DNA of 64,000 nt from contig OU612070.1 in NCBI GenBank assembly GCA_914767715.1, positions 11,365,501 through 11,429,500 on the forward strand. Reading direction: 5' to 3'. The position numbers and the translations under genes were made by a program. The notes under the pieces are model-generated. The model was given only the letters and a program-made list of their open reading frames with translations, was not told the origin of the DNA and did no database searches. This DNA comes from Membranipora membranacea (taxonomy: Eukaryota > Bryozoa > Gymnolaemata > Cheilostomatida > Membraniporidae). Shown here in pieces: positions 29,801-53,668 of the stretch (its first letter is position 1; every line of letters begins with the position of its first letter).

Positions 29801-32800
29801 CCCCGGCGAGGGAAAGTCTGAGAACAATGCAGGATCTTACTGGAGTTGTCTGCTCTTGAGTGTTATAAGTCATTCATTCATTCATGACATTGACAAAAGG
29901 TCATACAATGTGTATTATTGGACCCTAGGCTATATGAAGTAAGATTAATGTAGAAGCAAGGTGAATGCTATTTTCAAAAGAATTCGCGAATTAGGTCAAT
30001 ATTTTGGACACGTGATCATAACAAACATAGATTTCAAGTAGATGACATAGAATTGGCCGGCGTGGGAAGGAGTAGACAACTACCACTAATAAAACATATA
30101 ATGTATTGAACCAGGTACAGGTGATTTAAATATCAGAGGAGTTTGCATTTGAACTTGGTATTAAGTTTGAAAGTTAACCTTGGTTCAAAAGGTTCTAAAT
30201 CTTGATTGAAACAGCCCAGGGACTCATTCAATATGTTGAGTGAGTTGTCCCCTCTTTCATCAAAACAACCAAATCTATGTCATCCTAAGTAGTGTTATTT
30301 TACATAGATTTGGGGACTTAGTCTTCTCGGCTTGCTTTTTTCTCCGACGAACGAACCGCAGTATCAAACATATCAAACACAGTCTGAATCTGTGATTTAC
30401 TGCAATTAATTCTATTAATTCTTATGTATATGTAGTGAGTCAGGCTCAGGGGTTTGGGGGTTTCCAGCTTGTCTAACTATCAAGGAGAATAGGGGGTGTC
30501 GCGGGCTGCGAGGGGAACTAATCCAATGCCTGAATGGCACATATAAAATATTTTTACAGCAATACATTGAGGTTTACATTCATTCGAAAGCTTGTAGTGC
30601 TTGATTAATACAGAGAGTTGGTCCCTGATTAATACAGACGAGAAGCGCCAAATCGTTTTTTTATGAGTTAGTCGTCCCCTCTTTGAACAAAACACCCAAA
30701 TCTATGTCATTCTATGTTGTGTTATTTTACATAGATTTGATGACTTAGTCTACTTGGCTTGCTTTTTCTCCAGATAAAGCGAACAGCGGTATCAAACATA
30801 TTGAACACGGTCTGAATATGTGATTAACAGCAATTAATTGTATTAATTCTTATGTATGCGTCGTGAGTCAAGCTGATAGTTTTGGGGGGTTTCCAACTGG
30901 TGTCATCGAGGAGGATACGGAGTGTCGTGGGCTGTAAGGGAAACTGATACAATACCTCAATGGTACATAAAACATTAATTTTACAGCAATACATTGAGGT
31001 TTGCATTCATTCAGAGGTTGTAGTTCTTGATTAATACAGAAAGTTGGACCCCGATTAATACAGACGCGAAGCGCCAAATCGATTTTTTTATGAGCGAGTT
31101 GTCCCCTCTTTGAACAAAACAACCAAATCTATGTCATCCTACGTAGTGCTATTTTACATAGATTTGAGGACTTAGTCTACTTGGCTTGCTTTTTCTCCAG
31201 ATAAAGCGAACAGCGGTATCAAACATATTGAACACGGTCTGAATATGTGATTAACAGCAATTAATTGTATTAATTCTTATGTATGCGTCGTGAGTCAAGC
31301 TGATAGTTTTGGGGGGTTTCCAACTGGTGTCATCGAGGAGGATACGGAGTGTCGTGGGCTGTAAGAGAAACTGATACAATACCTCAATGGTACATAAAAC
31401 ATTAATTTTACAGCAATACATTGAGGTTTGCATTCATTCAGAGGTTGTAGTTCTTGATTAATACAGAAAGTTGGTCCCCGATTAATACAGACGCGAAGCG
31501 CCAAATCGATTTTTTTATGAGCGAGTTGTCCCCTCTTTGAACAAAACAACCAAATCTATGTCATCCTACGTAGTGCTATTTTACATAGATTTGAGGACTT
31601 AGTCTACTTGGCTTGCTTTTTTGCAATGATGAACTGGCAGTGTTATTAAAAAATCTTTATCGTATTAATTCTTATGCGTGTGTACAAAATGATGTAGTAT
31701 GTCTAACCAAAGAATTTTAATGATTGCAACTAGTGTCAACAGCGAGAATGGAATGTGCCATGAATAGTAATTGAATCATAAACGGTAGATGGTATATATA
31801 TATGAAACAGACGAGGGAGGCCAACAATATTTTTATGAGTTCACTCTCTGACCTACAACCAAATCTATGTCATACTATGCAGGATTGAAAAACATAGATT
31901 TGAAAATTTAGTCTATTTGACTGGATTTGCTTGTCAATTCACAAGCAAATGCATTGCTCAAGGTCTGGTTGACCAACTGCACTTAACCATGTTAGTTCAT
32001 ATATTTTTATATAGAAAACAACTCAGTAGTGTTTGAAACCAAGGAGTAGAATGCAAAGATCAATTCCATGTTTTCTCACGCTACAACGTAGATCTGATTT
32101 CACTGATCAGAGAGTGGACAACTCTTTATGATGTCGATTTTGTTACGATACTAGGACTAGGATCTTGTACACTCAAGTCCTGAAAATATTCAAATATCTG
32201 TGTGTGACTTATTAAGTGATTTTCAACTAATATATTATTGAAGATATACCATCACCTTCTTACATGTAAAAATAATACTGAAATAAAAAGCATAAAAGGC
32301 ACAGAAGTCATGGATTATAAAATTGAAATAAACAACAGGTTTGTAGGTTTGCTTTTGTGAATAAAAGTTTATGTAAAAATACTGCATAGAAGGCATAAAA
32401 GTCATGGATTATAAAATTGAAATAAACAACAGGTTTGTAGGTTTGCTTTTGAGAATAAAAGCTTACGTAAAAATACTGCATAGAAGGCATAAAAGTCATT
32501 ACAAAATTGAAATAAACAACAGGTTTGTAGGTTTCTCTTTGAACATTTATAGGAAAATGAATGATTGCAAGGTATGCAAGTGTGTATGATACGTCTCACA
32601 ATGAGATGGACAACACTTCTTTTAGGTTTCTTCGGTATGCTTCTTCAGCTTTCCCAAGAGATACTTTGTCAGCTAGTTGAATGCCATTGATAATAACCTA
32701 GAAAACAATAAAATCAAAGGTTAATTCAGCAAGGCAAGTGTATTTTGATATTTACCAACCAGGTCCAGACCAGAAAAGATGGAAGCTGAACATTGTAATA

Positions 32801-35800
32801 ATTATTCTTATACACATTGGAGAATGACTGTAGAGCTAAAACTTCAAAACCTTATGGATTCAATCATCTTGCCAATATAAGTACAACTGTAAAAGTCAGC
32901 AATGTGCCTTGCAGCTGGGATGATTGAAATGAAACAGGTTACCTTAATTCCAGTTGACAAAACAAGTTTCTCATCACTCTCTTGTCATTCAGATTGTGTT
33001 TGGTCACAGAGTTAGAGTTAAAACCTCCAACTCCTTGATTTGATACGTATTTGAGGGCTCTATACGTTGTTGGACATCATATTTGTTTGCGAATGATAAT
33101 GGCTATTTCAATGTTACATACTCCCTTATTTGTATGTCTGATCACTAGAACTCCCTTTTGAAGTGCTGGTATGCTTACCTTAGGCAAGTAGTTGAACCAA
33201 AACCAATCCTCTAGCGCAAATTTCCTGTTGGCTCCCACTATTCCAGCTCGTGCACATCGGAGCACTACTTTCGTAAATTTGTCATCCTGATAATAAAAGA
33301 CACATCAACATAAAATTTGCAACTTTAAATATTTGATAAGAGAGAACCAAAACAGAAAGTAGAGGTCATTTTTCTTAACATATTAGGTGTTATGTGCCCT
33401 TTGAGCATGTTAGGATAACTTCAAATTTATAATTCAGTGGTGTGGCCAAGGATTTATATTGTAACAAGCTGGTCAATGTTAGTCATTTATATTAAAAGTC
33501 AGTTATTTCTCACCTGTGTATCACCAATCAATATTGGAGACATAGCAGCTCTCTTCAAGCGAGACATGGCCCCTTCAGTACCTTTTATAAATGTAGCTTC
33601 CTCATCTCCAGCTGCACACTTAACTGCTAGTTCTTGTAGCATTATCTGTAATATGAATAAAATAGGAGCATTGTCAATGGAACAACACAGTCAGGGGTCT
33701 TTCAATCAGAGTGTGACTGTGTGATGCACTCATTCAAATATCGTTCGTTTGGTCTTTCAAGTAGACAAATTAGTTCCCAAATCGCTCACTCAGAATGTAT
33801 ATAGTTTGTCAATGGGAGAGGGAGAGAGACCCTCGCAATTTTCATTTTAGCTATGTTTAATTGTTCCATGATTTGTCATGATGGGGTATTTTATATATTG
33901 GCTATTCAGTCTGGTGACGAGGAAGTCTGGTGAGTTTTTTTCATCAACTGTTGTTGTACAAGCAGCATGATTGAGGTGTTACTATCTGTTGTCATCTCTT
34001 TGTCAGAAAATATTTCACACATACACCTTTTGGAACAATAAATTAGTCAGATGCCACAATAATCCAATTGATCACATCACACTACAAAAGCTTCGATCTT
34101 CAATTCTACTCTTACTCTAGGGTATATTTCTACAAACAGACTCAAAGCTTTTTACCCTGATTTCATTCTACCCAGCTACTTTATTACACAAAACGTCTTT
34201 GGTAGAATAAAAATGAATGGAGGTAGCACACCAAACATCAAACTACGCTGAGACTACCTAACATATCTAAATTGAAAAATTATTGGTAGAGACAACTGAA
34301 CACCATATACATGTATCTATATATACATATATTATTGTTCACAACTTTTTGTTTGCAACTTACAGTACGCTGCTCACAGAAACCTGGCCTTCTTTTCTTC
34401 CCATGCCTGCAATCCAGATACTGTGAACCCACATCCGTAAAAGCCTGGTGCACTCCGTCAATTCTCTCAATATATATTCTCTTTTGCAGGAGCCCTACAA
34501 GGAAAATAATTCAAGTATGATTTGTTAGTATTTGGTAGGAAACCATAGCCCCCAGCCCACTAGTAAATAATATTTCAGAGAATTCCAACTCTTGATTTAC
34601 TATACCCAATAGTAACTAAGTTGCAACCATAGTAATTAAGTTCCAACTATAGATGAATGTGAATTCACCAAATTGTCTATTATTCTCTTTTGTGATATAC
34701 CCAACCTAGGGTTACCAGTACCAAACTTTGGTCCACTCTAGCTTATTGCGATTCTAATATGTAGAACCTATCTATCAATTTAATTCTTCATCATAGGCAT
34801 TCTACCTAGGCTCATCAGTGTTACGGGATTGTGAATGTGTATTTAGCAGGCCCCCTACTTTGTTTGTCTGCTTGTGATTCACCTTTAATGTCTGATTCAC
34901 CCAAAATTGTGGGGAGCACAGGAAGGTTGTCAACAAGGTCAAGCGGTGTTTGTGGTTCTGTTTGCTCATAAGGCCTCCTGGAAAGGCAATCAGCATTGGT
35001 ATTAGTTTTCCCACTTTTGTGTTTGATGTCATAGTTGTACGGCTGAAGCAATAGTGACCAGCGACCTAGTCTGCCCTCTATGCTTTTCAAGTGTTTATCT
35101 GCAACGTAATGTCAATGAGTATTTATAATCTTTGGTAATGTTTGCATTTCTCTACTGCTGTAACCAGGGCTAGTCCCTCCTTGAGTGTTATAGAATAATT
35201 TTTAAAAAAAAACAGTAGTATAGATCAGAATATCAGAACAACAGAAAGTAAGCTGGGTTTGGTGGAATAAGGTATAAATAGATTTTTTTCAAGAAATCAT
35301 AAATAGATGTCACTAATTTTTAGGCCTTAGCAACTTGATTCCTTGGTCTTTAACATGTTGTTATAGATGAGTGAGGTATTACTATTTGCTATGTCATTTG
35401 CCATTTAAAAAAGATATGAGGCTGAATTTAATACTCTAACGGAACATGATTAATATTTTGCATGACTTGCTTGGGCAGTTTCATAGCTCAATTGCCTAAA
35501 AATTACAACACTTGATAATAATAATTTTAATTTTTTGACCATTACAGTGGTGTGAGAGATTATATTATTTTACCAACAGGCTAGTTGATGCAGCCCAATT
35601 AATTAAATCAGAATGTCAAACTTCACCTAAAACAAAATTATTTTCATGACATTATTTTTGGCTGAAGATGGCTCCATCCATAACAGTTCTATTATTTAAA
35701 AAGATCAAACCAAATCTGGGGCTGATAAATAAAGGTGTTTCTATTATATGTTGTAATTACAAAATAAGATTAAATCTTCATAAGCAGGATTAGCTTCCTT

Positions 35801-38800
35801 ACACAAACATAGAACATATATGTCAGGCAGCATGGCAATTATTTTTGCTGGTATGAATGGAAACAGAACAATATAATTGATTACACCCATGCTTGCACCA
35901 AAGGTACCAGAGACATGAGGATGTTTCATACCCAATAAACAAAACAAACAGTGTCTCAGATGTTTTAGGTATCTTAGATGATAAACAATGCTCAAATTTA
36001 GATAGTGCAAAGCAATAAAAGCATCCACTCTTCAATAGAAAGATTATAACATCTGAAATATTCACATGTGTATGCCTTAAAACCTCACTTATTGCTTGAA
36101 TTTTGATTACATTAGTGAATCTTGGACAATTATGTCAGCCATGAACTTGCTCTTGGCATTCTCCAGATTACCAATCATTGTGAGAGTGAAGTAGATTGCT
36201 CTACCTGTTTTAATATTAATGCTATATCCTTTCACCTGTTTGGTGAGGGAATAGTGTTCCAAAAGATTATCGTAATTTTATCCAGCTTTATTCACTTGGA
36301 AGATTGGTGTGCATATTCACACAACCATCCACCCCTACCCCATCATCCCAGTCAATTTTTCTTCCTATAGAAATATAAGGGCAAATATATGTTTATTCAA
36401 TTGCAGCGGATTCCTGAAGCTCTATGCATCTAAGCATTTGCCCGTGTCCAGTGTTTCCTTTGGTCAATGAGAAACCTATTTTCCTAGATAAGTACCAACA
36501 CTTATGTTGAATATTGGTGTGATTATTCGCTTGGAAATGAAGATGACCTGCATCCTACAGCTGAGTCAAAACAAGATATGATCCACACAATATTCATCAT
36601 CAAAGGTCACCCAGTAAATAAAAGTGCATCATTTATTTCAGCATGATATTTTGTAGACACTGACTATTGAACCTCTATGGCATGCTCATGCTCTATCCTG
36701 CATAATTCCAGCAAGAATAAACTGGCTTAATCACATTTTTTGAACTCATATAAAACATACAAAACATACAAAACATATAAAACATAACACAACACCTCAA
36801 TTCCTTGTAACGGCTTTAAATTACTGACCCTGGAATCGGTATGGGATGATGCTGATGGAGACCTGCCCAAATATAAATGTACAGTTTGAGTGTAGCCTTG
36901 CTAGAAAAAAAAATAGCGGATTAAAACAGCTGTAAAACTAACTAATTATGATAAAGATAAGGAAGTAGCTCTGCTGGTTTGGTTGCATGCCCTTCACACA
37001 CAGGATCATTTTCCGCTTCAGTCTTCTGACTAATGGGTTCTGTGGATGCCCAGGTGGATCCGACCTGCCTGCAAATTTTGTACTGAATTTGGCAGCTTGA
37101 TTTCTCAGTATTTGAGCTGAAACAGACCTTGTGATTTTAGCCAACATTCTAAGACTGCTAAACAGGTATATATACCAGCTAACACACATTGGAACTTGCA
37201 ATTGTTGTTCTATGTGAGTAGATGGGGTGTATCCATAGGTAGGTAAGCAGGTTAGGAAACTTAGGAAAAGAAAACCTTAACATGCCATAATAGCATGAAT
37301 ATGCATTGACTCTATTTATGTTTATCTCAGGGTGCTAAGGGGGTCCGTCGACATTTTACTGCTACTTCCGCTTTTATTGGCAAATTTCTATACGTTATAA
37401 TGTTCAGAGCTCATCAAAAAATTCAAAACTGAAACATGTGAGTTATTCCTCAGCATAATGGTCTGTCTCAAAACATACCTCAACGTCAATGGGCAAGGCT
37501 AGAAAACACAGCCTCCTAACATCACAAGTTCTAAATTGGTTGCAGAGAATTTTGACTTTTCTTATTATTCTATTCACAGACAATCTACCAAAATCACATA
37601 TTTTCTTGACTGTTAGCAGTTAACTCAAGCTCTAGTTCCTACCGCCTAGGACTCCCATGTGATCTTTTAATCACAATAAAATATTGCTCTCAGCCATTTA
37701 CCACCCTACGCAATAAGTTGATCGAAATATTCAATCCAAGGTTGATTAAAAGGTTGATAAAATCAAATGTCTTGTCATATGCCACATTCTGAAACATGGG
37801 CGCCAAAGTTCATTGCCCTAGTAGCGAGGCTGCAATATCTGTGCCAGGTTGCTCTCTGTTTGCAGGTCGGACCACAGCACTGGGGGCCAACCAAACCCCA
37901 GTAGTCGATGGACCGCAGTGGGATTCGAGCCCTCAACCTTCAGCATCTGCATGCTAAAGGTGTGGTGCTCTAACCAACTGAGCCACCTCCTACTCAAAGT
38001 ATCAAACACAGTAGGGATCGGATATGATGTCCCTCAAATGATATTGTTAATCAAAGTTTCCTGCTTGTTAGTTTTTATCCCAAAAAGGGCTGGAATCTCT
38101 AAAAACTGCCTCCATATTGAAAAAAAAAGATTTTCTGGCAGAGGCCCTTACCCCCTAGGATGAAGGCACCCATCCCGCCTGGCTCTACCACTTGAAAACC
38201 AATGGATACAGACCTGGATATTCCCTATTCTGTACCTCAAGTAAAATTTGTCCAAAAAGTGGTGCGGCCAATCGGTATGCTCCCGAACAAAAAGAAGCCA
38301 AAGCAGAAAGGTTTGCCACGCATGATCTGATGCATTTACGTTAGAGAGAAAGCTGTAATTTGTCTCAATCAAAAACTAGTGTGCGAGTTTAAATAGTACA
38401 TAACATTGCATGGGCTATTCATATTCAAAGACAGGGAAATAATTTGATGCAACGCTCATTTCAGTTTACAGGCAGGACCGAGCACACTCAGTGAACTCAT
38501 ATGGTGTGAGAGTTCATCCACCACACACTCCTTGAAAATGCCCTCAGCTCATCCATGACACCCATTTTATTTGCCTCAAACCCATCTCGCGAGGGAAATA
38601 ATAATTATGAAGGGCTTGCCAAAACTCAGTTAGCTGTCACAATCCAATCTGGCTACTTACATTGCATTGAGATTATTTTGTTGTATCGCTCTGCTTAAAC
38701 CCTATCCCCCTCCTTGGAAATTGATATCATGCTGTGGATGGGCACACCACAGAAACCAACAACACCTTTCACAGCATATGACTACAAATTCAAACTTGAT

Positions 38801-41800
38801 ACAGTAGGATTCACTCACCAGATTCCATATAATCTTCCAAACTGTCACCAAACGATTTCTCCTGAGAAAATATAGAGAGCTGAAGCTGATGTTCTGTCTC
38901 ATGCTGCCTTAGATGGTCTCTTGCTAACGTCTCATTAGTATGATATGATACTAAATCCATTATGGCAGTCAGTCCAACACAAAATCCAATGCTTTTGCGG
39001 AAGCTTATGTCGCAGTTAAGAATGGGTTTGTCTCTCTTTATCATATACTAATAGGTACTAGGAAAATAAAAATGAATGTTCACTCATGAAGAGCTTAATT
39101 ACAAATGACATACAACACAATTTACAACACACCTATGGAGTGAAAGTGAAAGCACTACATGTGTGCAGGGATGTGCTTTCACTTTACCTTTAAATCTGTA
39201 CTTGACCTATATTTTGAATTCTATGTCATTCAGCACGCACCTAGAAGCAATGAGAGGAAAAATCCGAGCAAACCTGCAAAGTGCATAGACTATCATAATC
39301 CTGGCTATTTATCATAGATTAACCGAAGGGAACTGACCATCAAAAGTACAAAAATAAGTTACCAATATGTCAAACAACTTATCTAACCATAGCTCCAGTG
39401 CCTAAACAATTTTTTCTAAGATGGGGGAGGGGGCAGTACCAAAACTCAAAGATATAGCAGTTGAAATACAATAAATATAATGTGTTGTTATGAATATTTA
39501 ACATTTATTATTATTAATCTCACCACAGCGTTGCCTTCTACTGGTCGTTTACCATATCTCGTATATCCTGGTCCCTCTAACTTCTCAACAGGTCGAAGAT
39601 GTTTAGCTGAGTCAAAGTAGAGGAATTTGACATTTTTGTTTAGAAATTTTGTAAACCATTGAGAAGCCTCCTCGTGGCCATCGGAAGCCGTGAAATTGTT
39701 ACCGTGCACACTGCAAACGAAGTGAATCACAAGGAATTAATAAACAATTAATATAAGGAAGATGACTTTGAAAATAATGACTATAACGTTGAATAAGGAG
39801 CTGATGATTCAAAATGACTGTCAACATTGATAGCCATGACTTACGTGACGAAACAGGTCGGCATTGAATCTGACCTGAAGCCAACCAAAGCAATTCAACC
39901 TTCTCCCTACTGGATTCAAAAATAAAATAGCAATACCTATAAGCAGAAAAAACTGAAAGTATCACATCACCTGCAGGGTACAACCTTAGCTTCTCTCTTG
40001 TCCAAACCAGCGAGTGAGACTCTCAGCTCATCCATATCTGGAGCTGTGATGATGAGATCTGTCCCTTCTAGTCTAGTGCCAATCAGCACCATGCGATTCT
40101 CTGTCCTTATAGAGACAAACTTCCCTGTCTCCGCATCGGCAACCATGAACTGCCTGTAACATAGAGATGGGAATTATGTCTTTCTTTAATGTAATTAAAT
40201 TATATCAATATTGGATTAAATGAACCTTTTTTCAATTAAATTCTTTGAACTGTACTGTTTTTGTTTTCGAAAAGGAATTTTTCTGGTACTATTTGAATTT
40301 ATAAGTAGTATTACTTCAATGTAGTATGATTCGATGAAAATAAAAATGCACCAAACAATGTGAACCTACAACTACATAACAGGATAGTTTCATTGAGTTT
40401 AATTTAAGATACAATTTATTGGTCATACCCATAATATACTTATGAACCGGATTTCACAAGGCAATTCGTACATTTTTTGATGGATAGTCTAATTAATATA
40501 TCACCACAACGTTAATCGTTTATAGGTAGCTGCGTGCATAAATGGTTCAAAGTCCAAGTTAGTGGTCTTCAGACCAATATATACAGACTTCGACTGGTAC
40601 TTGTGCACATAGAAGCTGACTAAATGTCCAGGTTTGAGTTTGATGAACTCACTATTTGACCGATGAGTATTTTGTACCCTTGTAAAACCACAAGTCTTTC
40701 AAATTCACAATGAGAATATTAAGCTGTGTACGTGCTTTGTGTTCAGATTGCATATCCGGGTTTGGCTTATAATTGAAAAGATAAGACTCTTGCCGCAGAC
40801 AAAGGGGCTCAGATTCGCCATAAGAAAAACACCAGCTGAGTAACGATGACAGCTCATCATATTTTAGACAGGCTCAAGAAAAACTTTTCATATGAAAAAT
40901 TTAATTTGTTGGTTTGCCAAGTCTGTGGAAAGACTATATAGGAACAATTCACCCCAAAATATCTAGACATTTATTTTTTAGATATTTCAGGTGTAATTGA
41001 GAAAGATTTTAGCTCTTGTGCTTGTCGAACGGACATTATTAGTTGCTACTTTTATACACATTTACTAAATACACTAAAATTGCACACATAACATAGACCC
41101 ACTGTCCAAACTTGGCTGATCGGATAAGAGGACTTTCACCTTGAGCTTACACCAGACTTGCCAACCTAAATTTTTCAAAATGCTTACAAAAATTTGCAAA
41201 ATGCTTAAAATGCTTACAAACTCCAGGGCGCCTTATATGACCAGAAATTGCCTCAAAATTTTTTTCTAATCACAGAACAAGGCTCTTCTCAGTAGCATTG
41301 GAATACGAATTGCACAACACCAACCTTTGAACTTGAATAATCATTAACATAATTGCAAAATTTTAGTAGTGGTAGTGTCCGGAAGAGCTCTTCCCAATCT
41401 GCTTGCAAACAGTCAGCAATTTCTGTCCAAATAAAGCTCTTGTCTTGTCCCAGCCCTCCTGTTGGATCTTTACATCACATTTTATGAAAACCATGTTTTT
41501 AAGCTTACAGAGTCTGCGATGGTTCAGTTCCGTGCTTACGAACGAACTGCATCCGACCTATTGTCCAATTCCGCTTTTTATGCATATATAAGGGTTGTAA
41601 AACATGTAGTAATGAGTATTAATGAATTGCGATTGTGCTTAGTCTGTATGTATTTATTGTGGCATCTCACCATCAGATGAACAAGTTTTTTAAATATCAA
41701 AGAAGAATCACTAATGCTAAGACAAATTACACTTCAAAATAAGAAAGTTTTGGAGTATACTGTAATAAGTAATCTTACAATGGATTTGGCATGAGTCTAA

Positions 41801-43414
41801 TAAACACTGGGGCAGGAGATCTGAGTTATCCCACCCCAACAAGGAGGTGGGCAACTTTGTTACTCTCATTGAAGAAAATTTGAAAATTGACTCATGTAAG
41901 CAGGGAGAATGAATTCAATTCTCCTTGATGTAAGACTTGAACACAGGTAAAAAGTCCCTATCAAATAAACACAATGGTTTTCTGTTGCCAATACCAGAGT
42001 TTTACACTATTAATCAACAATGACAAGATTATGCAGGTAAGCTGAAGCATAGTAAACACAAAATATGCGTTTTTTGATAACCTAATTAGATGAACAGGTG
42101 TTTGGAAAACCATAAATGTGTACAGCTAGCGTTCTGCGTTTAAAACTCAATTAGTGTCAAATAAGCGTTCATAAACGCTTTATGCGTACAGGTTGGCATG
42201 TATGGCTTACACAGCAAATTCACTTAGTTATCTTGGAAATTCAAATTTCAAATAACATGAATTGATAACACACTTAGGTATCAGAGCCATTTAAGTATAT
42301 TATATAAGAGATGATCTGATGACCAACAGGTAAACTGCATTGAGTCACAAACAGGAGGGATAACCAAAGAACAACAGGACTGGGATATGAGAGAACGGAT
42401 TACAAACCACCCCGACACCTGACTGACTGCCACCATCTGTATCACATGTCATTTGCAGCTACTTACATATTACAAGGCAGAACAAAACGCTTTTTGATTC
42501 ATAAATATTTTTAGTTTTTAGGTAACTAAACTGTTCAAAAAATATATAAAAATAAAACCACCTTCATGAAGATTTCTTTCAAATTCAATAATAATATATT
42601 TTTGTTCCTGATGCGCAAAAAAATTAGAGCTGACATGCAATACTGTCCATTATTCTTTACGCGCTGTTAACCCATTTCGTCTGTAAATAGAGGCATTTTC
42701 TGAATTAAAAATGTTCTACTTGTGATGTTTTTCAGCTGTCTGATAGACATGAGACCGCAGCAGTGCCAAAGTCTACACCTCATCCACTAATTTGTACTTT
42801 AGTAATAAGAACCCAAGGAATTTTTGATTGACAGTTAAAGCTTATTACTACAAGATACTGCATACAGAATTCCAGTGAGCCTTTAGTTAAATCAGCTAGA
42901 CAGCACAAGAGATAACAGTAAATAAAAAAAAGCTGCCATAATCTTTTCTTGGTGCAACATGCGGTGGACATGACAAGTTTAGTGGAGGTTGGAAACTAAA
43001 ATAACCAGAGATTTTAATAATTGAATATTAAGACAAAATTTCAATTAAATAGGCCATCTGGGAAAAAAAGAGAAAATTTCATGGAAAATTTAACTTCCTT
43101 ATAAAGTTTTTGAACTTGGTCACGACTATATATATTTCAAAACATAAGACAGCTGACAAAAAAAAGTTTACGTTGGTATCTCACCTGTCACGAATTGGTC
43201 CGCTTTCGAGGCCATGTGCCGTGCATAATGCCTCCAGTACTTCAATACCACCACACGATTTTACAGGGTATATGATGAGCTTGGCCACGGTGCCAGCTTT
43301 GCCAGGTTTACGGCTAGACGATCGCTGGTGCCGGTTGACGTAGGTATTGTATACAAAGTATGAGCCTGCAGTCAGAGCCACAGCTGTTGCACCGACAACC
43401 TTCCACGATTGCAT
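26881..43414 (-). CDS. MTARC1: Mitochondrial amidoxime-reducing component, MOSC-domain molybdenum enzyme (6 exons)
   Basis: Family enzymes use a molybdenum cofactor to reduce N-hydroxylated substrates at the outer mitochondrial membrane, fed by cytochrome b5. Exons 43414-43185, 40153-39971, 39710-39524, 29200-29054, 27485-27349 and 26992-26881 join in phase to 331 aa, about the length of human mARC proteins. The N-terminus has a hydrophobic anchor (VVGATAVALTAGSYFVYNTY), then KLIIYPVKSCGGIEV, the conserved MOSC N-terminal beta-barrel start. Next come FMVADAETGKFVSIR, SYRNFRPNILV, CGRCGLPNINPDTG (the cysteine block that holds the Mo ligand region) and GVIRVGDTV at the end. Intron 3 is 10.3 kb because TE2 copy 1 sits in it; intron 4 holds a foldback element. 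Which mARC paralogue this is cannot be told; the symbol names the family. Confidence 0.93.
27585..28480. mobile_element. 896-bp foldback (long-TIR) element with TTAA target duplication, in MTARC intron 4
   Basis: The left arm (GGTAACGTCAAAGACCG at 27585) and right arm (CGGTCTTTGTCATTACC to 28480) are diverged reverse complements over roughly 350 bp, with about 200 bp of spacer. TTAA lies at 27581-27584 and 28481-28484. TTAA duplication fits piggyBac- or Kolobok-type mobilisation. No ORF; a MITE. Confidence 0.75.
28610..28672. repeat. AT-rich hairpin in MTARC intron 4
   Basis: CATAGACTTAATATAC and GTATATTAAGTCTATG are reverse complements around a TA-rich loop. Its origin is not known. Confidence 0.5.
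28676..28807. repeat. Short element with 14-bp inverted ends
   Basis: GAGTGCTCAAACTCTG at the left and CCAGAGTTTGAGCACC at the right are inverted copies about 130 bp apart. It may be a small MITE; target duplications were not found. Confidence 0.4.
29759..29826. repeat. GC-rich hairpin bordered by AGTCTGAG
   Basis: AGTCTGAG occurs at 29760-29767 and again near 29814-29821. Between them lies a stem, GACTTTTGCCCCTCGCC with GGCGAGGGAAAGTC. The left part belongs to the dispersed family also seen at 505-546. Confidence 0.5.
29951..29959. repeat. Left target-site duplication of TE2 copy 1
   Basis: TAGAAGCAA, repeated at 39242-39250. Confidence 0.85.
30247..31620. repeat. 427-bp subterminal tandem array of TE2 (copy 1)
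   Basis: GTCCCCTCTTT starts units at 30247, 30674, 31101 and 31528, spaced exactly 427 bp. Each unit carries a hairpin whose arms are AAATCTATG and CATAGATTT. A fifth, diverged hairpin lies near 31861-31905. Units 3 and 4 are nearly identical, so expansion was recent. The repeated 60-84-codon minus-strand frames follow from this periodicity and are not supported as genes. Confidence 0.85.
32305..32548. repeat. 94-bp tandem repeat, three copies (TE2 copy 1)
   Basis: AAGTCAT followed by AAATTGAAATAAACAACAGG starts at 32305, 32399 and 32493, with a constant 94-bp period. The third unit is partly diverged. Confidence 0.8.
32596..39044 (-). CDS. Unrecognised multi-exon gene carried by TE2 (copy 1)
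   Basis: I do not recognise this protein. The 5' exons join in phase: 39044-38819 (ATG start, KRDKPILNCDISFRKSIGF), 38690-38661, 38326-38236 (WQTFLLWLLFVREHTDWPHH) and 37154-37065. The 3' exons also join in phase: 34494-34364 (GSQYLDCRHGKKRRPGF), 33645-33514 (LKRAAMSPILIGDTQ), 33286-33179 (LRCARAGIVGANRKFALEDW) and 32697-32596 (ends KEVLSISL, stop). One or more linking exons between 37065 and 34494 are unresolved; 36862-36829 is a possible one. At least 270 codons. No transposase catalytic motif is evident. It could be a captured host gene with its introns or an unfamiliar transposon protein. The start codon is about 200 bp from the element's right end. An acceptor-like site just upstream of the ATG suggests a 5' UTR intron. 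Confidence 0.6.
34803..35190 (-). pseudogene. Ty3/gypsy retrotransposon relic (RNase H end of pol) inside TE2 copy 1
   Basis: The minus-strand frame contains GRLGRWSLLLQPYNYDIKHK followed by SGKTNTNADCLSRRP, the characteristic end of gypsy RNase H before integrase. A broken upstream part (KEGLALVTAVEKCKHY) is interrupted by stops. No LTRs or other pol domains were seen, so it is a fragment. It lies in an intron of the TE2 gene and is present in both TE2 copies. Confidence 0.8.
37911..37993 (-). repeat. tRNA-like unit in TE2 copy 1
   Basis: On the minus strand: GGTGGCTCAGTTGGTTAGAG (D-arm and A box) and, about 40 nt later, GGCTCGAATCCCAC (T-arm and B box). The acceptor ends do not pair, so this is a tRNA-derived repeat or pseudogene rather than a working tRNA. 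Confidence 0.6.
39143..39185. repeat. Right subterminal hairpin of TE2 copy 1
   Basis: AAAGTGAAAGCAC (39143-39155) and GTGCTTTCACTTT (39173-39185) form a perfect 13-bp stem about 60 bp from the element's end, the counterpart of the hairpins near its left end. Confidence 0.6.
39242..39250. repeat. Right target-site duplication of TE2 copy 1
   Basis: TAGAAGCAA, identical to 29951-29959. Confidence 0.85.
40154..43184 (-). other. MTARC intron 1 (3 kb), nothing else recognised
   Basis: AT-rich, without supported coding exons on either strand. It includes a short internal repetition of AAAATGCTTACAAA near 41180-41220. Confidence 0.5.
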
Positions 43415-43686
43415 GATGAATAGAAATGTAGGTACCCGGTTTTCTACAACTGAAACACAATCATCTTAAGCATTACTGTCTTATTTGGTAAAATGAATTG
43501 ATCGATCAACAGGCGATTAATCCTCACAATACCAAATATTCTTTGGTGCCATGAAGGTATAAATCGAGAAAAACTAACCCTGTGTCGGTATATAAACACC
43601 AAGCATATCTCCGCAAGAAATCTGTACACAATTATTGCGAACAGGATGGACTTATAGTTTACTGACAGTAAACTCCAACCTCCCGA

Positions 43687-43846
43687 CATGGGTCCCTGGG
43701 ACTTGCATGTCTTAACTTTGCCAATGTCCACTATCAACCACCCAAAAAACACCAAACAGGGTAAGACACAAAAATTTTTGGTGTTTTTTGGGTGGTTGAT
43801 AGTGGACATTGGCAAAGTAAAGACATGCAAGTCCCAGGGGCCCATG
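43687..43846. mobile_element. 160-bp foldback MITE in the MTARC 5' flank, 8-bp TSD
   Basis: The ends CATGGGTCCCTGGGACTTGC and, inverted, GCAAGTCCCAGGGGCCCATG begin arms that pair over about 70 bp, through GCCAATGTCCACTATCAACC and the inner ACCACCCAAAAAACACC. CCTCCCGA lies at 43679-43686 and 43847-43854. It sits about 270 bp upstream of the MTARC ATG. The long minus- and plus-strand frames over it are palindrome artefacts. Relics of the family are at 3333-3550, 3715-3900 and 57505-57545. Confidence 0.85.
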
Positions 43847-44368
43847 CCTCCCGACCCTTGCATCATGATGATATATCATCCGATCATCCATTACCCTGCC
43901 CTTAGTCTGAGACCCCCAATGGGACGCCCCCCCCTGCCATGGGTCTTTTGGTATGTATATGTATCCCCTTCCTCCAATTTTCTTTCCAGTATTGAGATGG
44001 GAGTGAAACATGTTAATTTTTGCAAGGAACACAATGATTGAATGAGACATAATTATTTCATTGCAAGACATAAAATAAATATGAAATGTGATCGTTCTTT
44101 TGCACTATCTAATTCTATATATAATTCAATAATAATTATTATCCATCGTAATGTATCTGAGCTGAGTGAACCACAGTAGTAGTGTAGGATAATACATATG
44201 TTTTTGTAAAGATTTAGTACAATTATACTACAGTGTATGTGTTTATAAATTTACTAACTTGCACCAGGGAGAATGCACTCACCTATCTAGCTGTTGATCA
44301 ACTGTCTACACATGATTTTAAATATGAGTTTTGTAGTGTGTGTAGTGAGCCCTTGATTTCTTACACAG

Positions 44369-44377
44369 TTGAAGAAC
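44369..44377. repeat. Left target-site duplication of TE2 copy 2
   Basis: TTGAAGAAC, repeated at 53660-53668. Confidence 0.85.
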
Positions 44378-44664
44378 GGTGAATGCTATTTTCAAAAGAA
44401 TTCGCGAATTAGGTCAATATTTTGGACACGTGATCATAACAAACATAGATTTCAAGTAGATGACATAGAATTGGCCGGCGTGGGAAGGAGTAGACAACTA
44501 CCACTAATAAAACATATAATGTATTGAACCAGGTACAGGTGATTTAAATATCAGAGGAGTTTGCATTTGAACTTGGTATTAAGTTTGAAAGTTAACCTTG
44601 GTTCAAAAGGTTCTAAATCTTGATTGAAACAGCCCAGGGACTCATTCAATATGTTGAGTGAGTT

Positions 44665-46038
44665 GTCCCCTCTTTCATCAAAACAACCAAATCTATGTCA
44701 TCCTAAGTAGTGTTATTTTACATAGATTTGGGGACTTAGTCTTCTCGGCTTGCTTTTTTCTCCGACGAACGAACCGCAGTATCAAACATATCAAACACAG
44801 TCTGAATCTGTGATTTACTGCAATTAATTCTATTAATTCTTATGTATATGTAGTGAGTCAGGCTCAGGGGTTTGGGGGTTTCCAGCTTGTCTAACTATCA
44901 AGGAGAATAGGGGGTGTCGCGGGCTGCGAGGGGAACTAATCCAATGCCTGAATGGCACATATAAAATATTTTTACAGCAATACATTGAGGTTTACATTCA
45001 TTCGAAAGCTTGTAGTGCTTGATTAATACAGAGAGTTGGTCCCTGATTAATACAGACGAGAAGCGCCAAATCGTTTTTTTATGAGTTAGTCGTCCCCTCT
45101 TTGAACAAAACACCCAAATCTATGTCATTCTATGTTGTGTTATTTTACATAGATTTGATGACTTAGTCTACTTGGCTTGCTTTTTCTCCAGATAAAGCGA
45201 ACAGCGGTATCAAACATATTGAACACGGTCTGAATATGTGATTAACAGCAATTAATTGTATTAATTCTTATGTATGCGTCGTGAGTCAAGCTGATAGTTT
45301 TGGGGGGTTTCCAACTGGTGTCATCGAGGAGGATACGGAGTGTCGTGGGCTGTAAGGGAAACTGATACAATACCTCAATGGTACATAAAACATTAATTTT
45401 ACAGCAATACATTGAGGTTTGCATTCATTCAGAGGTTGTAGTTCTTGATTAATACAGAAAGTTGGACCCCGATTAATACAGACGCGAAGCGCCAAATCGA
45501 TTTTTTTATGAGCGAGTTGTCCCCTCTTTGAACAAAACAACCAAATCTATGTCATCCTACGTAGTGCTATTTTACATAGATTTGAGGACTTAGTCTACTT
45601 GGCTTGCTTTTTCTCCAGATAAAGCGAACAGCGGTATCAAACATATTGAACACGGTCTGAATATGTGATTAACAGCAATTAATTGTATTAATTCTTATGT
45701 ATGCGTCGTGAGTCAAGCTGATAGTTTTGGGGGGTTTCCAACTGGTGTCATCGAGGAGGATACGGAGTGTCGTGGGCTGTAAGAGAAACTGATACAATAC
45801 CTCAATGGTACATAAAACATTAATTTTACAGCAATACATTGAGGTTTGCATTCATTCAGAGGTTGTAGTTCTTGATTAATACAGAAAGTTGGTCCCCGAT
45901 TAATACAGACGCGAAGCGCCAAATCGATTTTTTTATGAGCGAGTTGTCCCCTCTTTGAACAAAACAACCAAATCTATGTCATCCTACGTAGTGCTATTTT
46001 ACATAGATTTGAGGACTTAGTCTACTTGGCTTGCTTTT
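44665..46038. repeat. 427-bp subterminal tandem array of TE2 (copy 2)
   Basis: Units start at 44665, 45092, 45519 and 45946, same unit and hairpins as in copy 1. The unit number is unchanged between copies. Confidence 0.85.
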
Positions 46039-46722
46039 TTGCAATGATGAACTGGCAGTGTTATTAAAAAATCTTTATCGTATTAATTCTTATGCGTGTG
46101 TACAAAATGATGTAGTATGTCTAACCAAAGAATTTTAATGATTGCAACTAGTGTCAACAGCGAGAATGGAATGTGCCATGAATAGTAATTGAATCATAAA
46201 CGGTAGATGGTATATATATATGAAACAGACGAGGGAGGCCAACAATATTTTTATGAGTTCACTCTCTGACCTACAACCAAATCTATGTCATACTATGCAG
46301 GATTGAAAAACATAGATTTGAAAATTTAGTCTATTTGACTGGATTTGCTTGTCAATTCACAAGCAAATGCATTGCTCAAGGTCTGGTTGACCAACTGCAC
46401 TTAACCATGTTAGTTCATATATTTTTATATAGAAAACAACTCAGTAGTGTTTGAAACCAAGGAGTAGAATGCAAAGATCAATTCCATGTTTTCTCACGCT
46501 ACAACGTAGATCTGATTTCACTGATCAGAGAGTGGACAACTCTTTATGATGTCGATTTTGTTACGATACTAGGACTAGGATCTTGTACACTCAAGTCCTG
46601 AAAATATTCAAATATCTGTGTGTGACTTATTAAGTGATTTTCAACTAATATATTATTGAAGATATACCATCACCTTCTTACATGTAAAAATAATACTGAA
46701 ATAAAAAGCATAAAAGGCACAG

Positions 46723-46966
46723 AAGTCATGGATTATAAAATTGAAATAAACAACAGGTTTGTAGGTTTGCTTTTGTGAATAAAAGTTTATGTAAAAATAC
46801 TGCATAGAAGGCATAAAAGTCATGGATTATAAAATTGAAATAAACAACAGGTTTGTAGGTTTGCTTTTGAGAATAAAAGCTTACGTAAAAATACTGCATA
46901 GAAGGCATAAAAGTCATTACAAAATTGAAATAAACAACAGGTTTGTAGGTTTCTCTTTGAACATTT
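46723..46966. repeat. 94-bp tandem repeat, three copies (TE2 copy 2)
   Basis: Units start at 46723, 46817 and 46911, as in copy 1. Confidence 0.8.
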
Positions 46967-47013
46967 ATAGGAAAATGAATGATTGCAAGGTATGCAAGTG
47001 TGTATGATACGTC

Positions 47014-50000
47014 TCACAATGAGATGGACAACACTTCTTTTAGGTTTCTTCGGTATGCTTCTTCAGCTTTCCCAAGAGATACTTTGTCAGCTAGTTGAAT
47101 GCCATTGATAATAACCTAGAAAACAATAAAATCAAAGGTTAATTCAGCAAGGCAAGTGTATTTTGATATTTACCAACCAGGTCCAGACCAGAAAAGATGG
47201 AAGCTGAACATTGTAATAATTATTCTTATACACATTGGAGAATGACTGTAGAGCTAAAACTTCAAAACCTTATGGATTCAATCATCTTGCCAATATAAGT
47301 ACAACTGTAAAAGTCAGCAATGTGCCTTGCAGCTGGGATGATTGAAATGAAACAGGTTACCTTAATTCCAGTTGACAAAACAAGTTTCTCATCACTCTCT
47401 TGTCATTCAGATTGTGTTTGGTCACAGAGTTAGAGTTAAAACCTCCAACTCCTTGATTTGATACGTATTTGAGGGCTCTATACGTTGTTGGACATCATAT
47501 TTGTTTGCGAATGATAATGGCTATTTCAATGTTACATACTCCCTTATTTGTATGTCTGATCACTAGAACTCCCTTTTGAAGTGCTGGTATGCTTACCTTA
47601 GGCAAGTAGTTGAACCAAAACCAATCCTCTAGCGCAAATTTCCTGTTGGCTCCCACTATTCCAGCTCGTGCACATCGGAGCACTACTTTCGTAAATTTGT
47701 CATCCTGATAATAAAAGACACATCAACATAAAATTTGCAACTTTAAATATTTGATAAGAGAGAACCAAAACAGAAAGTAGAGGTCATTTTTCTTAACATA
47801 TTAGGTGTTATGTGCCCTTTGAGCATGTTAGGATAACTTCAAATTTATAATTCAGTGGTGTGGCCAAGGATTTATATTGTAACAAGCTGGTCAATGTTAG
47901 TCATTTATATTAAAAGTCAGTTATTTCTCACCTGTGTATCACCAATCAATATTGGAGACATAGCAGCTCTCTTCAAGCGAGACATGGCCCCTTCAGTACC
48001 TTTTATAAATGTAGCTTCCTCATCTCCAGCTGCACACTTAACTGCTAGTTCTTGTAGCATTATCTGTAATATGAATAAAATAGGAGCATTGTCAATGGAA
48101 CAACACAGTCAGGGGTCTTTCAATCAGAGTGTGACTGTGTGATGCACTCATTCAAATATCGTTCGTTTGGTCTTTCAAGTAGACAAATTAGTTCCCAAAT
48201 CGCTCACTCAGAATGTATATAGTTTGTCAATGGGAGAGGGAGAGAGACCCTCGCAATTTTCATTTTAGCTATGTTTAATTGTTCCATGATTTGTCATGAT
48301 GGGGTATTTTATATATTGGCTATTCAGTCTGGTGACGAGGAAGTCTGGTGAGTTTTTTTCATCAACTGTTGTTGTACAAGCAGCATGATTGAGGTGTTAC
48401 TATCTGTTGTCATCTCTTTGTCAGAAAATATTTCACACATACACCTTTTGGAACAATAAATTAGTCAGATGCCACAATAATCCAATTGATCACATCACAC
48501 TACAAAAGCTTCGATCTTCAATTCTACTCTTACTCTAGGGTATATTTCTACAAACAGACTCAAAGCTTTTTACCCTGATTTCATTCTACCCAGCTACTTT
48601 ATTACACAAAACGTCTTTGGTAGAATAAAAATGAATGGAGGTAGCACACCAAACATCAAACTACGCTGAGACTACCTAACATATCTAAATTGAAAAATTA
48701 TTGGTAGAGACAACTGAACACCATATACATGTATCTATATATACATATATTATTGTTCACAACTTTTTGTTTGCAACTTACAGTACGCTGCTCACAGAAA
48801 CCTGGCCTTCTTTTCTTCCCATGCCTGCAATCCAGATACTGTGAACCCACATCCGTAAAAGCCTGGTGCACTCCGTCAATTCTCTCAATATATATTCTCT
48901 TTTGCAGGAGCCCTACAAGGAAAATAATTCAAGTATGATTTGTTAGTATTTGGTAGGAAACCATAGCCCCCAGCCCACTAGTAAATAATATTTCAGAGAA
49001 TTCCAACTCTTGATTTACTATACCCAATAGTAACTAAGTTGCAACCATAGTAATTAAGTTCCAACTATAGATGAATGTGAATTCACCAAATTGTCTATTA
49101 TTCTCTTTTGTGATATACCCAACCTAGGGTTACCAGTACCAAACTTTGGTCCACTCTAGCTTATTGCGATTCTAATATGTAGAACCTATCTATCAATTTA
49201 ATTCTTCATCATAGGCATTCTACCTAGGCTCATCAGTGTTACGGGATTGTGAATGTGTATTTAGCAGGCCCCCTACTTTGTTTGTCTGCTTGTGATTCAC
49301 CTTTAATGTCTGATTCACCCAAAATTGTGGGGAGCACAGGAAGGTTGTCAACAAGGTCAAGCGGTGTTTGTGGTTCTGTTTGCTCATAAGGCCTCCTGGA
49401 AAGGCAATCAGCATTGGTATTAGTTTTCCCACTTTTGTGTTTGATGTCATAGTTGTACGGCTGAAGCAATAGTGACCAGCGACCTAGTCTGCCCTCTATG
49501 CTTTTCAAGTGTTTATCTGCAACGTAATGTCAATGAGTATTTATAATCTTTGGTAATGTTTGCATTTCTCTACTGCTGTAACCAGGGCTAGTCCCTCCTT
49601 GAGTGTTATAGAATAATTTTTAAAAAAAAACAGTAGTATAGATCAGAATATCAGAACAACAGAAAGTAAGCTGGGTTTGGTGGAATAAGGTATAAATAGA
49701 TTTTTTTCAAGAAATCATAAATAGATGTCACTAATTTTTAGGCCTTAGCAACTTGATTCCTTGGTCTTTAACATGTTGTTATAGATGAGTGAGGTATTAC
49801 TATTTGCTATGTCATTTGCCATTTAAAAAAGATATGAGGCTGAATTTAATACTCTAACGGAACATGATTAATATTTTGCATGACTTGCTTGGGCAGTTTC
49901 ATAGCTCAATTGCCTAAAAATTACAACACTTGATAATAATAATTTTAATTTTTTGACCATTACAGTGGTGTGAGAGATTATATTATTTTACCAACAGGCT

Positions 50001-53000
50001 AGTTGATGCAGCCCAATTAATTAAATCAGAATGTCAAACTTCACCTAAAACAAAATTATTTTCATGACATTATTTTTGGCTGAAGATGGCTCCATCCATA
50101 ACAGTTCTATTATTTAAAAAGATCAAACCAAATCTGGGGCTGATAAATAAAGGTGTTTCTATTATATGTTGTAATTACAAAATAAGATTAAATCTTCATA
50201 AGCAGGATTAGCTTCCTTACACAAACATAGAACATATATGTCAGGCAGCATGGCAATTATTTTTGCTGGTATGAATGGAAACAGAACAATATAATTGATT
50301 ACACCCATGCTTGCACCAAAGGTACCAGAGACATGAGGATGTTTCATACCCAATAAACAAAACAAACAGTGTCTCAGATGTTTTAGGTATCTTAGATGAT
50401 AAACAATGCTCAAATTTAGATAGTGCAAAGCAATAAAAGCATCCACTCTTCAATAGAAAGATTATAACATCTGAAATATTCACATGTGTATGCCTTAAAA
50501 CCTCACTTATTGCTTGAATTTTGATTACATTAGTGAATCTTGGACAATTATGTCAGCCATGAACTTGCTCTTGGCATTCTCCAGATTACCAATCATTGTG
50601 AGAGTGAAGTAGATTGCTCTACCTGTTTTAATATTAATGCTATATCCTTTCACCTGTTTGGTGAGGGAATAGTGTTCCAAAAGATTATCGTAATTTTATC
50701 CAGCTTTATTCACTTGGAAGATTGGTGTGCATATTCACACAACCATCCACCCCTACCCCATCATCCCAGTCAATTTTTCTTCCTATAGAAATATAAGGGC
50801 AAATATATGTTTATTCAATTGCAGCGGATTCCTGAAGCTCTATGCATCTAAGCATTTGCCCGTGTCCAGTGTTTCCTTTGGTCAATGAGAAACCTATTTT
50901 CCTAGATAAGTACCAACACTTATGTTGAATATTGGTGTGATTATTCGCTTGGAAATGAAGATGACCTGCATCCTACAGCTGAGTCAAAACAAGATATGAT
51001 CCACACAATATTCATCATCAAAGGTCACCCAGTAAATAAAAGTGCATCATTTATTTCAGCATGATATTTTGTAGACACTGACTATTGAACCTCTATGGCA
51101 TGCTCATGCTCTATCCTGCATAATTCCAGCAAGAATAAACTGGCTTAATCACATTTTTTGAACTCATATAAAACATACAAAACATACAAAACATATAAAA
51201 CATAACACAACACCTCAATTCCTTGTAACGGCTTTAAATTACTGACCCTGGAATCGGTATGGGATGATGCTGATGGAGACCTGCCCAAATATAAATGTAC
51301 AGTTTGAGTGTAGCCTTGCTAGAAAAAAAAATAGCGGATTAAAACAGCTGTAAAACTAACTAATTATGATAAAGATAAGGAAGTAGCTCTGCTGGTTTGG
51401 TTGCATGCCCTTCACACACAGGATCATTTTCCGCTTCAGTCTTCTGACTAATGGGTTCTGTGGATGCCCAGGTGGATCCGACCTGCCTGCAAATTTTGTA
51501 CTGAATTTGGCAGCTTGATTTCTCAGTATTTGAGCTGAAACAGACCTTGTGATTTTAGCCAACATTCTAAGACTGCTAAACAGGTATATATACCAGCTAA
51601 CACACATTGGAACTTGCAATTGTTGTTCTATGTGAGTAGATGGGGTGTATCCATAGGTAGGTAAGCAGGTTAGGAAACTTAGGAAAAGAAAACCTTAACA
51701 TGCCATAATAGCATGAATATGCATTGACTCTATTTATGTTTATCTCAGGGTGCTAAGGGGGTCCGTCGACATTTTACTGCTACTTCCGCTTTTATTGGCA
51801 AATTTCTATACGTTATAATGTTCAGAGCTCATCAAAAAATTCAAAACTGAAACATGTGAGTTATTCCTCAGCATAATGGTCTGTCTCAAAACATACCTCA
51901 ACGTCAATGGGCAAGGCTAGAAAACACAGCCTCCTAACATCACAAGTTCTAAATTGGTTGCAGAGAATTTTGACTTTTCTTATTATTCTATTCACAGACA
52001 ATCTACCAAAATCACATATTTTCTTGACTGTTAGCAGTTAACTCAAGCTCTAGTTCCTACCGCCTAGGACTCCCATGTGATCTTTTAATCACAATAAAAT
52101 ATTGCTCTCAGCCATTTACCACCCTACGCAATAAGTTGATCGAAATATTCAATCCAAGGTTGATTAAAAGGTTGATAAAATCAAATGTCTTGTCATATGC
52201 CACATTCTGAAACATGGGCGCCAAAGTTCATTGCCCTAGTAGCGAGGCTGCAATATCTGTGCCAGGTTGCTCTCTGTTTGCAGGTCGGACCACAGCACTG
52301 GGGGCCAACCAAACCCCAGTAGTCGATGGACCGCAGTGGGATTCGAGCCCTCAACCTTCAGCATCTGCATGCTAAAGGTGTGGTGCTCTAACCAACTGAG
52401 CCACCTCCTACTCAAAGTATCAAACACAGTAGGGATCGGATATGATGTCCCTCAAATGATATTGTTAATCAAAGTTTCCTGCTTGTTAGTTTTTATCCCA
52501 AAAAGGGCTGGAATCTCTAAAAACTGCCTCCATATTGAAAAAAAAAGATTTTCTGGCAGAGGCCCTTACCCCCTAGGATGAAGGCACCCATCCCGCCTGG
52601 CTCTACCACTTGAAAACCAATGGATACAGACCTGGATATTCCCTATTCTGTACCTCAAGTAAAATTTGTCCAAAAAGTGGTGCGGCCAATCGGTATGCTC
52701 CCGAACAAAAAGAAGCCAAAGCAGAAAGGTTTGCCACGCATGATCTGATGCATTTACGTTAGAGAGAAAGCTGTAATTTGTCTCAATCAAAAACTAGTGT
52801 GCGAGTTTAAATAGTACATAACATTGCATGGGCTATTCATATTCAAAGACAGGGAAATAATTTGATGCAACGCTCATTTCAGTTTACAGGCAGGACCGAG
52901 CACACTCAGTGAACTCATATGGTGTGAGAGTTCATCCACCACACACTCCTTGAAAATGCCCTCAGCTCATCCATGACACCCATTTTATTTGCCTCAAACC

Positions 53001-53462
53001 CATCTCGCGAGGGAAATAATAATTATGAAGGGCTTGCCAAAACTCAGTTAGCTGTCACAATCCAATCTGGCTACTTACATTGCATTGAGATTATTTTGTT
53101 GTATCGCTCTGCTTAAACCCTATCCCCCTCCTTGGAAATTGATATCATGCTGTGGATGGGCACACCACAGAAACCAACAACACCTTTCACAGCATATGAC
53201 TACAAATTCAAACTTGATACAGTAGGATTCACTCACCAGATTCCATATAATCTTCCAAACTGTCACCAAACGATTTCTCCTGAGAAAATATAGAGAGCTG
53301 AAGCTGATGTTCTGTCTCATGCTGCCTTAGATGGTCTCTTGCTAACGTCTCATTAGTATGATATGATACTAAATCCATTATGGCAGTCAGTCCAACACAA
53401 AATCCAATGCTTTTGCGGAAGCTTATGTCGCAGTTAAGAATGGGTTTGTCTCTCTTTATCAT
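47014..53462 (-). CDS. Unrecognised multi-exon gene carried by TE2 (copy 2)
   Basis: Exons at 53462-53237, 53108-53079, 52744-52654, 51572-51483, then after an unresolved link 48912-48782, 48063-47932, 47704-47597 and 47115-47014. Sequence, phases and splice sites match copy 1, so both copies are equally intact. Function is not recognised. Confidence 0.6.
49221..49608 (-). pseudogene. Ty3/gypsy RNase H relic inside TE2 copy 2
   Basis: Same fragment and same disruptions as 34803-35190, so it was already part of TE2 before the element moved. Confidence 0.8.
52329..52411 (-). repeat. tRNA-like unit in TE2 copy 2
   Basis: Same A-box and B-box sequences as 37911-37993. Confidence 0.6.
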
Positions 53463-53659
53463 ATACTAATAGGTACTAGGAAAATAAAAATGAATGTTCA
53501 CTCATGAAGAGCTTAATTACAAATGACATACAACACAATTTACAACACACCTATGGAGTGAAAGTGAAAGCACTACATGTGTGCAGGGATGTGCTTTCAC
53601 TTTACCTTTAAATCTGTACTTGACCTATATTTTGAATTCTATGTCATTCAGCACGCACC

Positions 53660-53668
53660 TTGAAGAAC
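53660..53668. repeat. Right target-site duplication of TE2 copy 2
   Basis: TTGAAGAAC, identical to 44369-44377. It starts with TTGAAG, while the copy 1 target starts with TAGAAG. Confidence 0.85.

Follow-up and report, generated by a model that had tools for sequence, protein, structure and literature searches.

Two identical copies of a large element

The window considered here is a stretch of 64,000 nucleotides of Membranipora membranacea DNA, bases 11365501-11429500 of contig C6 (OU612070.1) in a genome of 339 Mb on 18 contigs. It contains two copies, A and B, of a large transposable element with inverted ends, and the following features define them.

29951-29959: 9-bp target site duplication of A, left (TAGAAGCAA)
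29960-39241, plus strand: transposon copy A, 9282 bp
29960-29999, plus strand: left terminal inverted repeat of A, 40 bp, 26/40 match to the right end
39202-39241, minus strand: right terminal inverted repeat of A
39242-39250: 9-bp target site duplication of A, right
44369-44377: 9-bp target site duplication of B, left (TTGAAGAAC)
44378-53659, plus strand: transposon copy B, 9282 bp, identical to A
44378-44417, plus strand: left terminal inverted repeat of B, by identity with A
53620-53659, minus strand: right terminal inverted repeat of B, by identity with A
53660-53668: 9-bp target site duplication of B, right

The end-to-end alignment of A with B covers 9282 bp in the same orientation with 0 differences, in agreement with the preliminary description of the locus, and a spacing of 5136 bp separates the two copies. 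A is bordered on both sides by the exact 9-bp repeat TAGAAGCAA and B by TTGAAGAAC, as had also been described. The flanks were said to differ from the first outside base. This is correct on the left; on the right both flanks begin with T and are unlike from the second base. The 300-bp flanks of A and B have no match to each other, and the genome-wide search places A and B at two separate loci of contig C6. No empty site was found among the already retrieved sequence compared with the joined flanks of the two copies.

The GGTG/CACC inverted ends reported earlier extend into an imperfect inverted repeat of 40 bp, in which the left 40 bases and the reverse complement of the right are identical at 26 positions. 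None of the 18200 interior 40-mers (both strands) matches the left end as well.

A dispersed family with 9-bp duplications

The left 701 bp of A has at least 187 genomic matches; among those listed, 40 begin within the first four bases. For the right 601 bp there are at least 41 matches. A 21-base terminal pattern, with at most one mismatch, occurs at 104 genomic sites, compared with 8 for the reversed control. Both ends could be read in 39 copies, comprising A, B, ten whole copies and 27 more (4 whole, 23 by their ends only); these 39 are not every copy, as at least 11 of the listed pattern sites, with no partner nearby, were left out.

The exact 9-bp duplication is present in 24 of the 39 copies, A and B included, and in 26 if one mismatch is permitted. 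The cross-copy control gave exact 9-bp agreement in 0 of 1482 pairings, which excludes chance as the source of the duplications. The preliminary description had looked to further genomic copies with 9-bp duplications, and the search revealed a dispersed family with exact duplications at 22 copies besides A and B. The recent transposition of a large DNA element that it proposed is borne out by these many dispersed copies and by the 24 exact duplications at conserved ends. Its suggestion of a common T-A/T-GAAG target did not survive: the 26 duplications with at most one mismatch have no target consensus and no strongly biased position, so the GAAG common to both targets is chance.

Terminal inverted repeats and a duplication of fixed length that differs from copy to copy, the features by which terminal inverted repeat (TIR) transposons are recognised, are both found. 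The family is a cut-and-paste TIR DNA transposon family and has been recently active. Helitrons lack target duplications and inverted ends, whereas the present element has both. Mavericks/Polintons produce a 6-bp duplication and carry PolB and integrase genes; here, the duplication is 9 bp and A has no Pfam match.

The shortest copy, of 474 bp, consists of the left 44 bp and the right 433 bp of the element and has its own duplication, GTTCAGTTC. Where its two parts join, 3 bases are common to both, which resembles deletions made by repair. Since this copy carries its own duplication, the left 44 bp is probably enough on the left side, which gives an idea of how short a left end may suffice. 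At five loci with the terminal pattern and no partner, the common left end (46-48, 172-176 or 164-201 bp) or right end (75-86 bp) is followed by divergence, and no autonomous element was recognisable by eye and BLAST in 6 kb at each of the five. We also note two left ends of the family back to back, 12 kb apart and pointing away from each other, at C4:24101849 and C4:24113870, in which 13 bp outside and 96 bp inside are identical.

Lengths and lineages

The 39 copies range from 474 to 13859 bp by their end positions, with a median of 9334 bp, and 25 of them are at least 9 kb long. The two longest probably hold later insertions, because their right ends match in two pieces.

Divergence was calculated from an alignment of A with ten other copies, one of them cut at 10266 bp. 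The ten include two groups of four with 0.2-0.5% divergence inside each, and the remaining two differ by 1.6%; A diverges from all ten by 3.4-3.8%. Among gaps of at least 60 columns, those of 915 and 540 columns in A are common to B and occur in none of the ten. Within the 915-column gap lie shorter ones, of 71 columns in eight of the ten and of 185 columns in one, and a gap of 377 columns in A overlaps one of 413 columns in two copies. The 915- and 540-column gaps place A and B in a lineage of their own, in which one was derived from the other or both came from one unseen source. The spacing of 5136 bp would fit a short-range jump.

A second subfamily is represented by L076 (8889 bp) and C2:26.4. 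It has ~1.2 kb in common with A at the left (84%), and further repeated sequence is shared out to 1.8 kb (~400 bp in C2:26.4). L076 also has 166 bp in common with A at the right, and short internal stretches match as well.

Internal gene and other cargo

The interior of A contains the following features.

30237-31621 (44655-46039 in B): subterminal tandem array, 427-bp unit x 3.2
32290-32542 (46708-46960 in B): tandem array, 94-bp unit x 2.7
32599-32697, minus strand: exon E5, AG acceptor, ends right before a TGA stop
33179-33286, minus strand: exon E4, AG...GT splice signals
33514-33645, minus strand: exon E3, AG...GT splice signals
34364-34492, minus strand: exon E2, AG...GT splice signals; its likeness to the beginning of an ALS2CR8-MULE gene at another genomic site (MULE, Mutator-like element) is insignificant (E 0.4)
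34821-35090, minus strand: piece of a gypsy-type RNase H region
37829-37995, minus strand: piece like a short interspersed nuclear element (SINE), with tRNA-like A and B boxes (by eye), limits approximate
38817-39002, minus strand: possible exon E1, GT donor; 5' limit uncertain, start may be an internal AG

Fuller copies have an extra exon that was lost in A, with a weak Pfam match to ALS2CR8 (E 0.0072). Compared with the ALS2CR8 exon at C2:22.54, it is 43% identical, with E 1e-8 when just three loci were compared. The frame through E1 meets a stop in nine of the ten other copies and is shifted there in the tenth, a stop that may be intronic; one copy has a further stop in E3, and another has one in E4. 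E1-E5 diverge from A slightly less than the rest does in all ten copies (21/654 vs 308/8242 in C4:21.40). Between A and C4:21.40, E2-E5 show 10 nonsynonymous changes in 362 sites and 5 synonymous changes in 106, and three other comparisons give 10/362 and 3/106, 8/337 and 1/98, and 14/362 and 1/106, respectively. As nonsynonymous changes are not clearly depleted, constraint on the exons is slight at most.

In L076, E4 is still recognisable (52% over 25 residues), and E1 and E3 are faintly traceable by short matches (E 0.3-0.5); the order is unchanged, so the gene probably predates the split of the subfamilies. No protein homologue of the internal gene was found at E 1 among 55 candidates, in a search that could find only proteins of 114-362 residues, and the comparison with solved structures gave no significant relative (best E 0.31). 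The literature search revealed nothing joining ALS2CR8 with a transposase, or calcium-responsive transcription factor with transposon and Mutator. We lean toward the internal gene being the family's own decayed transposase gene rather than a captured one.

In the alignment, four other copies have gaps of 437-438 columns, as expected if their 427-bp array is one unit shorter. The gypsy piece is longer in C4:21.40, where PF17917 is matched at 1.2e-15, whereas in A nothing reached E 1. ARAGORN at its default threshold called no tRNA in the SINE-like piece, and the unrelated locus L094 holds sequence 82-84% similar to this piece. Rfam matched nothing inside the element at E 0.1. In L076, a 411-aa open frame (4580-5812) has a weak PNMA-like (gag-like) match, E 0.055, and this stretch is absent from the shorter C2:26.4.

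Outside the copies, the segment at 43688-43844 of the window, between A and B, is hairpin-like, with sub-threshold matches to two miRNA families on both strands; it is probably a small inverted-repeat transposon. We take the frame at 11547-12029 of the window to be ELOVL-like, and 54704-55714 is presumably a reverse transcriptase of the long interspersed nuclear element (LINE) type.

Search for a transposase

Full Pfam scans covered A, L076 and part of C4:21.40. The six frames of A contain no domain at E 1, those of L076 contain no transposase and only the weak PNMA-like match given above, and no transposase is present on the minus strand of most of C4:21.40, 1525 bp at its right end lying outside the scan. 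As no transposase was recognised in the scanned copies, the family looks nonautonomous. The genome profile search listed 32 sites of the MULE domain (PF10551), 0 of them inside the 39 copies. As no MULE DDE transposase was found inside its copies, we do not class the family as a proven MULE, although nonautonomous members are expected to be without one as well. The 22 ALS2CR8 sites listed in the genome likewise include 0 inside the 39 copies, and such a search is apparently not sensitive enough for the ALS2CR8-like exon of the family itself.

The genome has MULE-type genes, some of them tied to ALS2CR8. At three loci ALS2CR8 lies 0.7-0.9 kb upstream of the MULE domain on the same strand, and the scan of one of them, C3:34.68, confirmed both domains. 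Two further families were encountered among these sites. L092 (C8:16124800-16130600) and L093 (C6:23439800-23445600) each hold a MULE with an open frame of 804 aa, and the two are 98.7% identical over 4 kb. Their right end, TCGGTAACTG..., was inferred from where their match stops and is also found near a third MULE site, L094; they are possibly an autonomous family that was recently active. L095 (C2:22543000-22549500) and L098 (C1:12624000-12630000) belong to another repeated family, ~98% identical, with ALS2CR8 exons, a PHD finger and a frame that resembles a C48-type peptidase by eye. Its inverted repeats are at least 323 bp in L095, and one arm is largely lost in L098.

Weighing of the explanations

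The duplications of MULEs are 8-11 bp long (excerpts of PMC6446971), a range in which the 9 bp of the present family falls, and in arthropods most MULEs begin with three conserved G/C bases (excerpts of PMC13359780). The 9-bp duplication, the G-rich ends and the ALS2CR8 likeness make a MULE enzyme the most likely one. Our preferred explanation, held with moderate confidence, is that a single large nonautonomous TIR family of the cut-and-paste type gave rise to A and B by recent insertion, and that its movement most likely depends on a MULE transposase.

Several observations weigh against this explanation. Other copies had been expected to end at GGTG/CACC beside a 9-bp repeat, which is the case for 26 of the 39 with at most one mismatch in the repeat; the remaining 13 have no duplication at the expected place. 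Five of these have altered last bases (C1:33.55, C1:29.07, C11:2.82, C2:26.4 and C11:14.25), the 9-mer of C1:36.1 is shifted by 9 bp, that of C9:12.17 has two mismatches, and six (C10:3.02, C1:9.61, C3:6.95, C4:15.1, C8:5.09 and C9:0.44) have no match to a duplication. We read the 13 as products of decay and rearrangement, the six matchless ones not being accounted for singly. The extra exon matches ALS2CR8 with a score that does not reach the Pfam cut-off, and the ALS2CR8 exon most like it belongs to a different repeated family, in which no MULE domain is in view. At a fourth locus (C7:8.76) the two domains are within 5 kb of each other, with ALS2CR8 4.1 kb downstream. Neither an autonomous copy nor a transposase with these ends was found. 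The sole MULE family with an inferable right end, that with the 804-aa frame at two loci, ends TCGGTAAC..., not GGTG; this gene pair is real, but as a partner it was rejected on account of the differing right end. Furthermore, the 9-bp duplication and the GG ends, both testable features, fit Merlin too.

A Merlin-like (IS1016/IS1595 type) family would have the same cut-and-paste mechanics with a different enzyme. Merlin elements have 5'-GG ends and 8- or 9-bp duplications, and some protist families have very imperfect inverted repeats or tandem repeats (excerpts of PMC8101967); the GG ends, the 9-bp duplications and the imperfect repeats of the present element all fit. Nevertheless, no such Pfam match was found in the six frames of A or of L076, and the weak likeness of the internal gene is to a gene that accompanies MULE domains in this genome, so we judge a Merlin-like enzyme unlikely. 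A further alternative concerns the cargo and is compatible with a MULE enzyme: a Pack-type transposon (an animal Pack-MULE), in which a host gene with introns was captured as genomic DNA and amplified. Exons with consensus splice signals and without clear constraint, the absence of a recognised transposase and the mixed cargo of SINE-like and gypsy pieces all speak for it. However, the gene is probably common to both subfamilies in the same order though diverged, so that a capture would be old, and the ALS2CR8 likeness points to a transposon-associated gene; capture is possible, but we doubt it.

The identity of A and B could also reflect old insertions homogenised by gene conversion rather than a recent jump. 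Two copies 5136 bp apart in the same orientation are a good setting for conversion, which inside the homologous part would spare the two different duplications. It would have to span all 9282 bp with zero leftover differences, though, and divergences of only 0.2-0.5% are also seen among other copies, many of them located on different contigs, so that recent transposition is common here; conversion is accordingly improbable. An assembly artefact might be suspected from two nearby long blocks that are exactly identical, but the different flanks and different exact 9-bp duplications of A and B, and the 22 further copies with exact duplications, leave it hardly credible.

Proposed mechanism

For a MULE-moved nonautonomous family, the sequence of events may be pictured as follows. 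A MULE-type enzyme would be supplied in trans by an autonomous relative; the enzyme, its class and its action in trans are all deduced. It would bind the 40-bp terminal repeats and excise the element. Insertion at a 9-bp staggered break, followed by gap filling, would produce the 9-bp duplications, which are observed at the ends of dispersed copies. Copies then shorten by internal deletion, probably during repair, and copies of 474 bp to ~11 kb have both ends in common. The cargo carried along includes a decayed intron-bearing gene, probably predating the subfamily split, together with SINE-like and gypsy pieces.

Relation to known elements and significance

The family resembles MULE/MuDR elements in its 9-bp duplications, its G-rich inverted ends and the gene fragments aboard. 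In contrast to them, no MULE transposase was found inside it, its ends are only 26/40 identical, and it is larger than most: arthropod MULEs are 1.4-10.0 kb long, mostly 2.5-5.0 kb (excerpts of PMC13359780). Pack-MULEs and Pack-TIRs are likewise nonautonomous and multicopy, with intron-bearing gene fragments between terminal repeats. The present family differs in its many 9-11-kb copies; according to excerpts of PMC6431247, no Pack-MULE of Jiang et al. 2004 was longer than 7 kb. For animals, the excerpts of PMC8277862 give 370 Pack-TIRs and no Pack-MULE in 100 reference genomes, and the literature search, within titles and abstract openings, yielded no animal Pack-MULE family. Merlin is alike in 5'-GG ends and a 9-bp duplication (8 or 9 in Merlin), but the scanned copies of the family have no IS1595-type transposase. 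Rehavkus is alike in its 9-bp duplication (excerpts of PMC6446971), whereas A has neither a PHD finger nor a transposase.

Cut-and-paste families of this kind are well known, and the present one is presumably a new family of a known kind; its notable point is its size, which is unusual for a nonautonomous element. The efficacy of cut-and-paste transposition is described as falling above 6 kb of cargo (excerpts of PMC6431247). Because cargo size is thought to limit such transposition, a family in which 25 of 39 copies are at least 9 kb long is useful. It offers a graded series, from A and B with 0 differences in 9282 bp through clusters at 0.2-0.5% and other copies at 3-4% to a second subfamily. 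It is a speculative reading, and we think an unlikely one, that this is the first large multicopy Pack-MULE family of an animal, made of enzyme-less 9-11-kb transposons that carry an unspliced host gene and repeats and still jump at full length, one pair being identical base for base. If the cargo is a captured gene, the family would be an animal counterpart of the plant Pack-MULEs.

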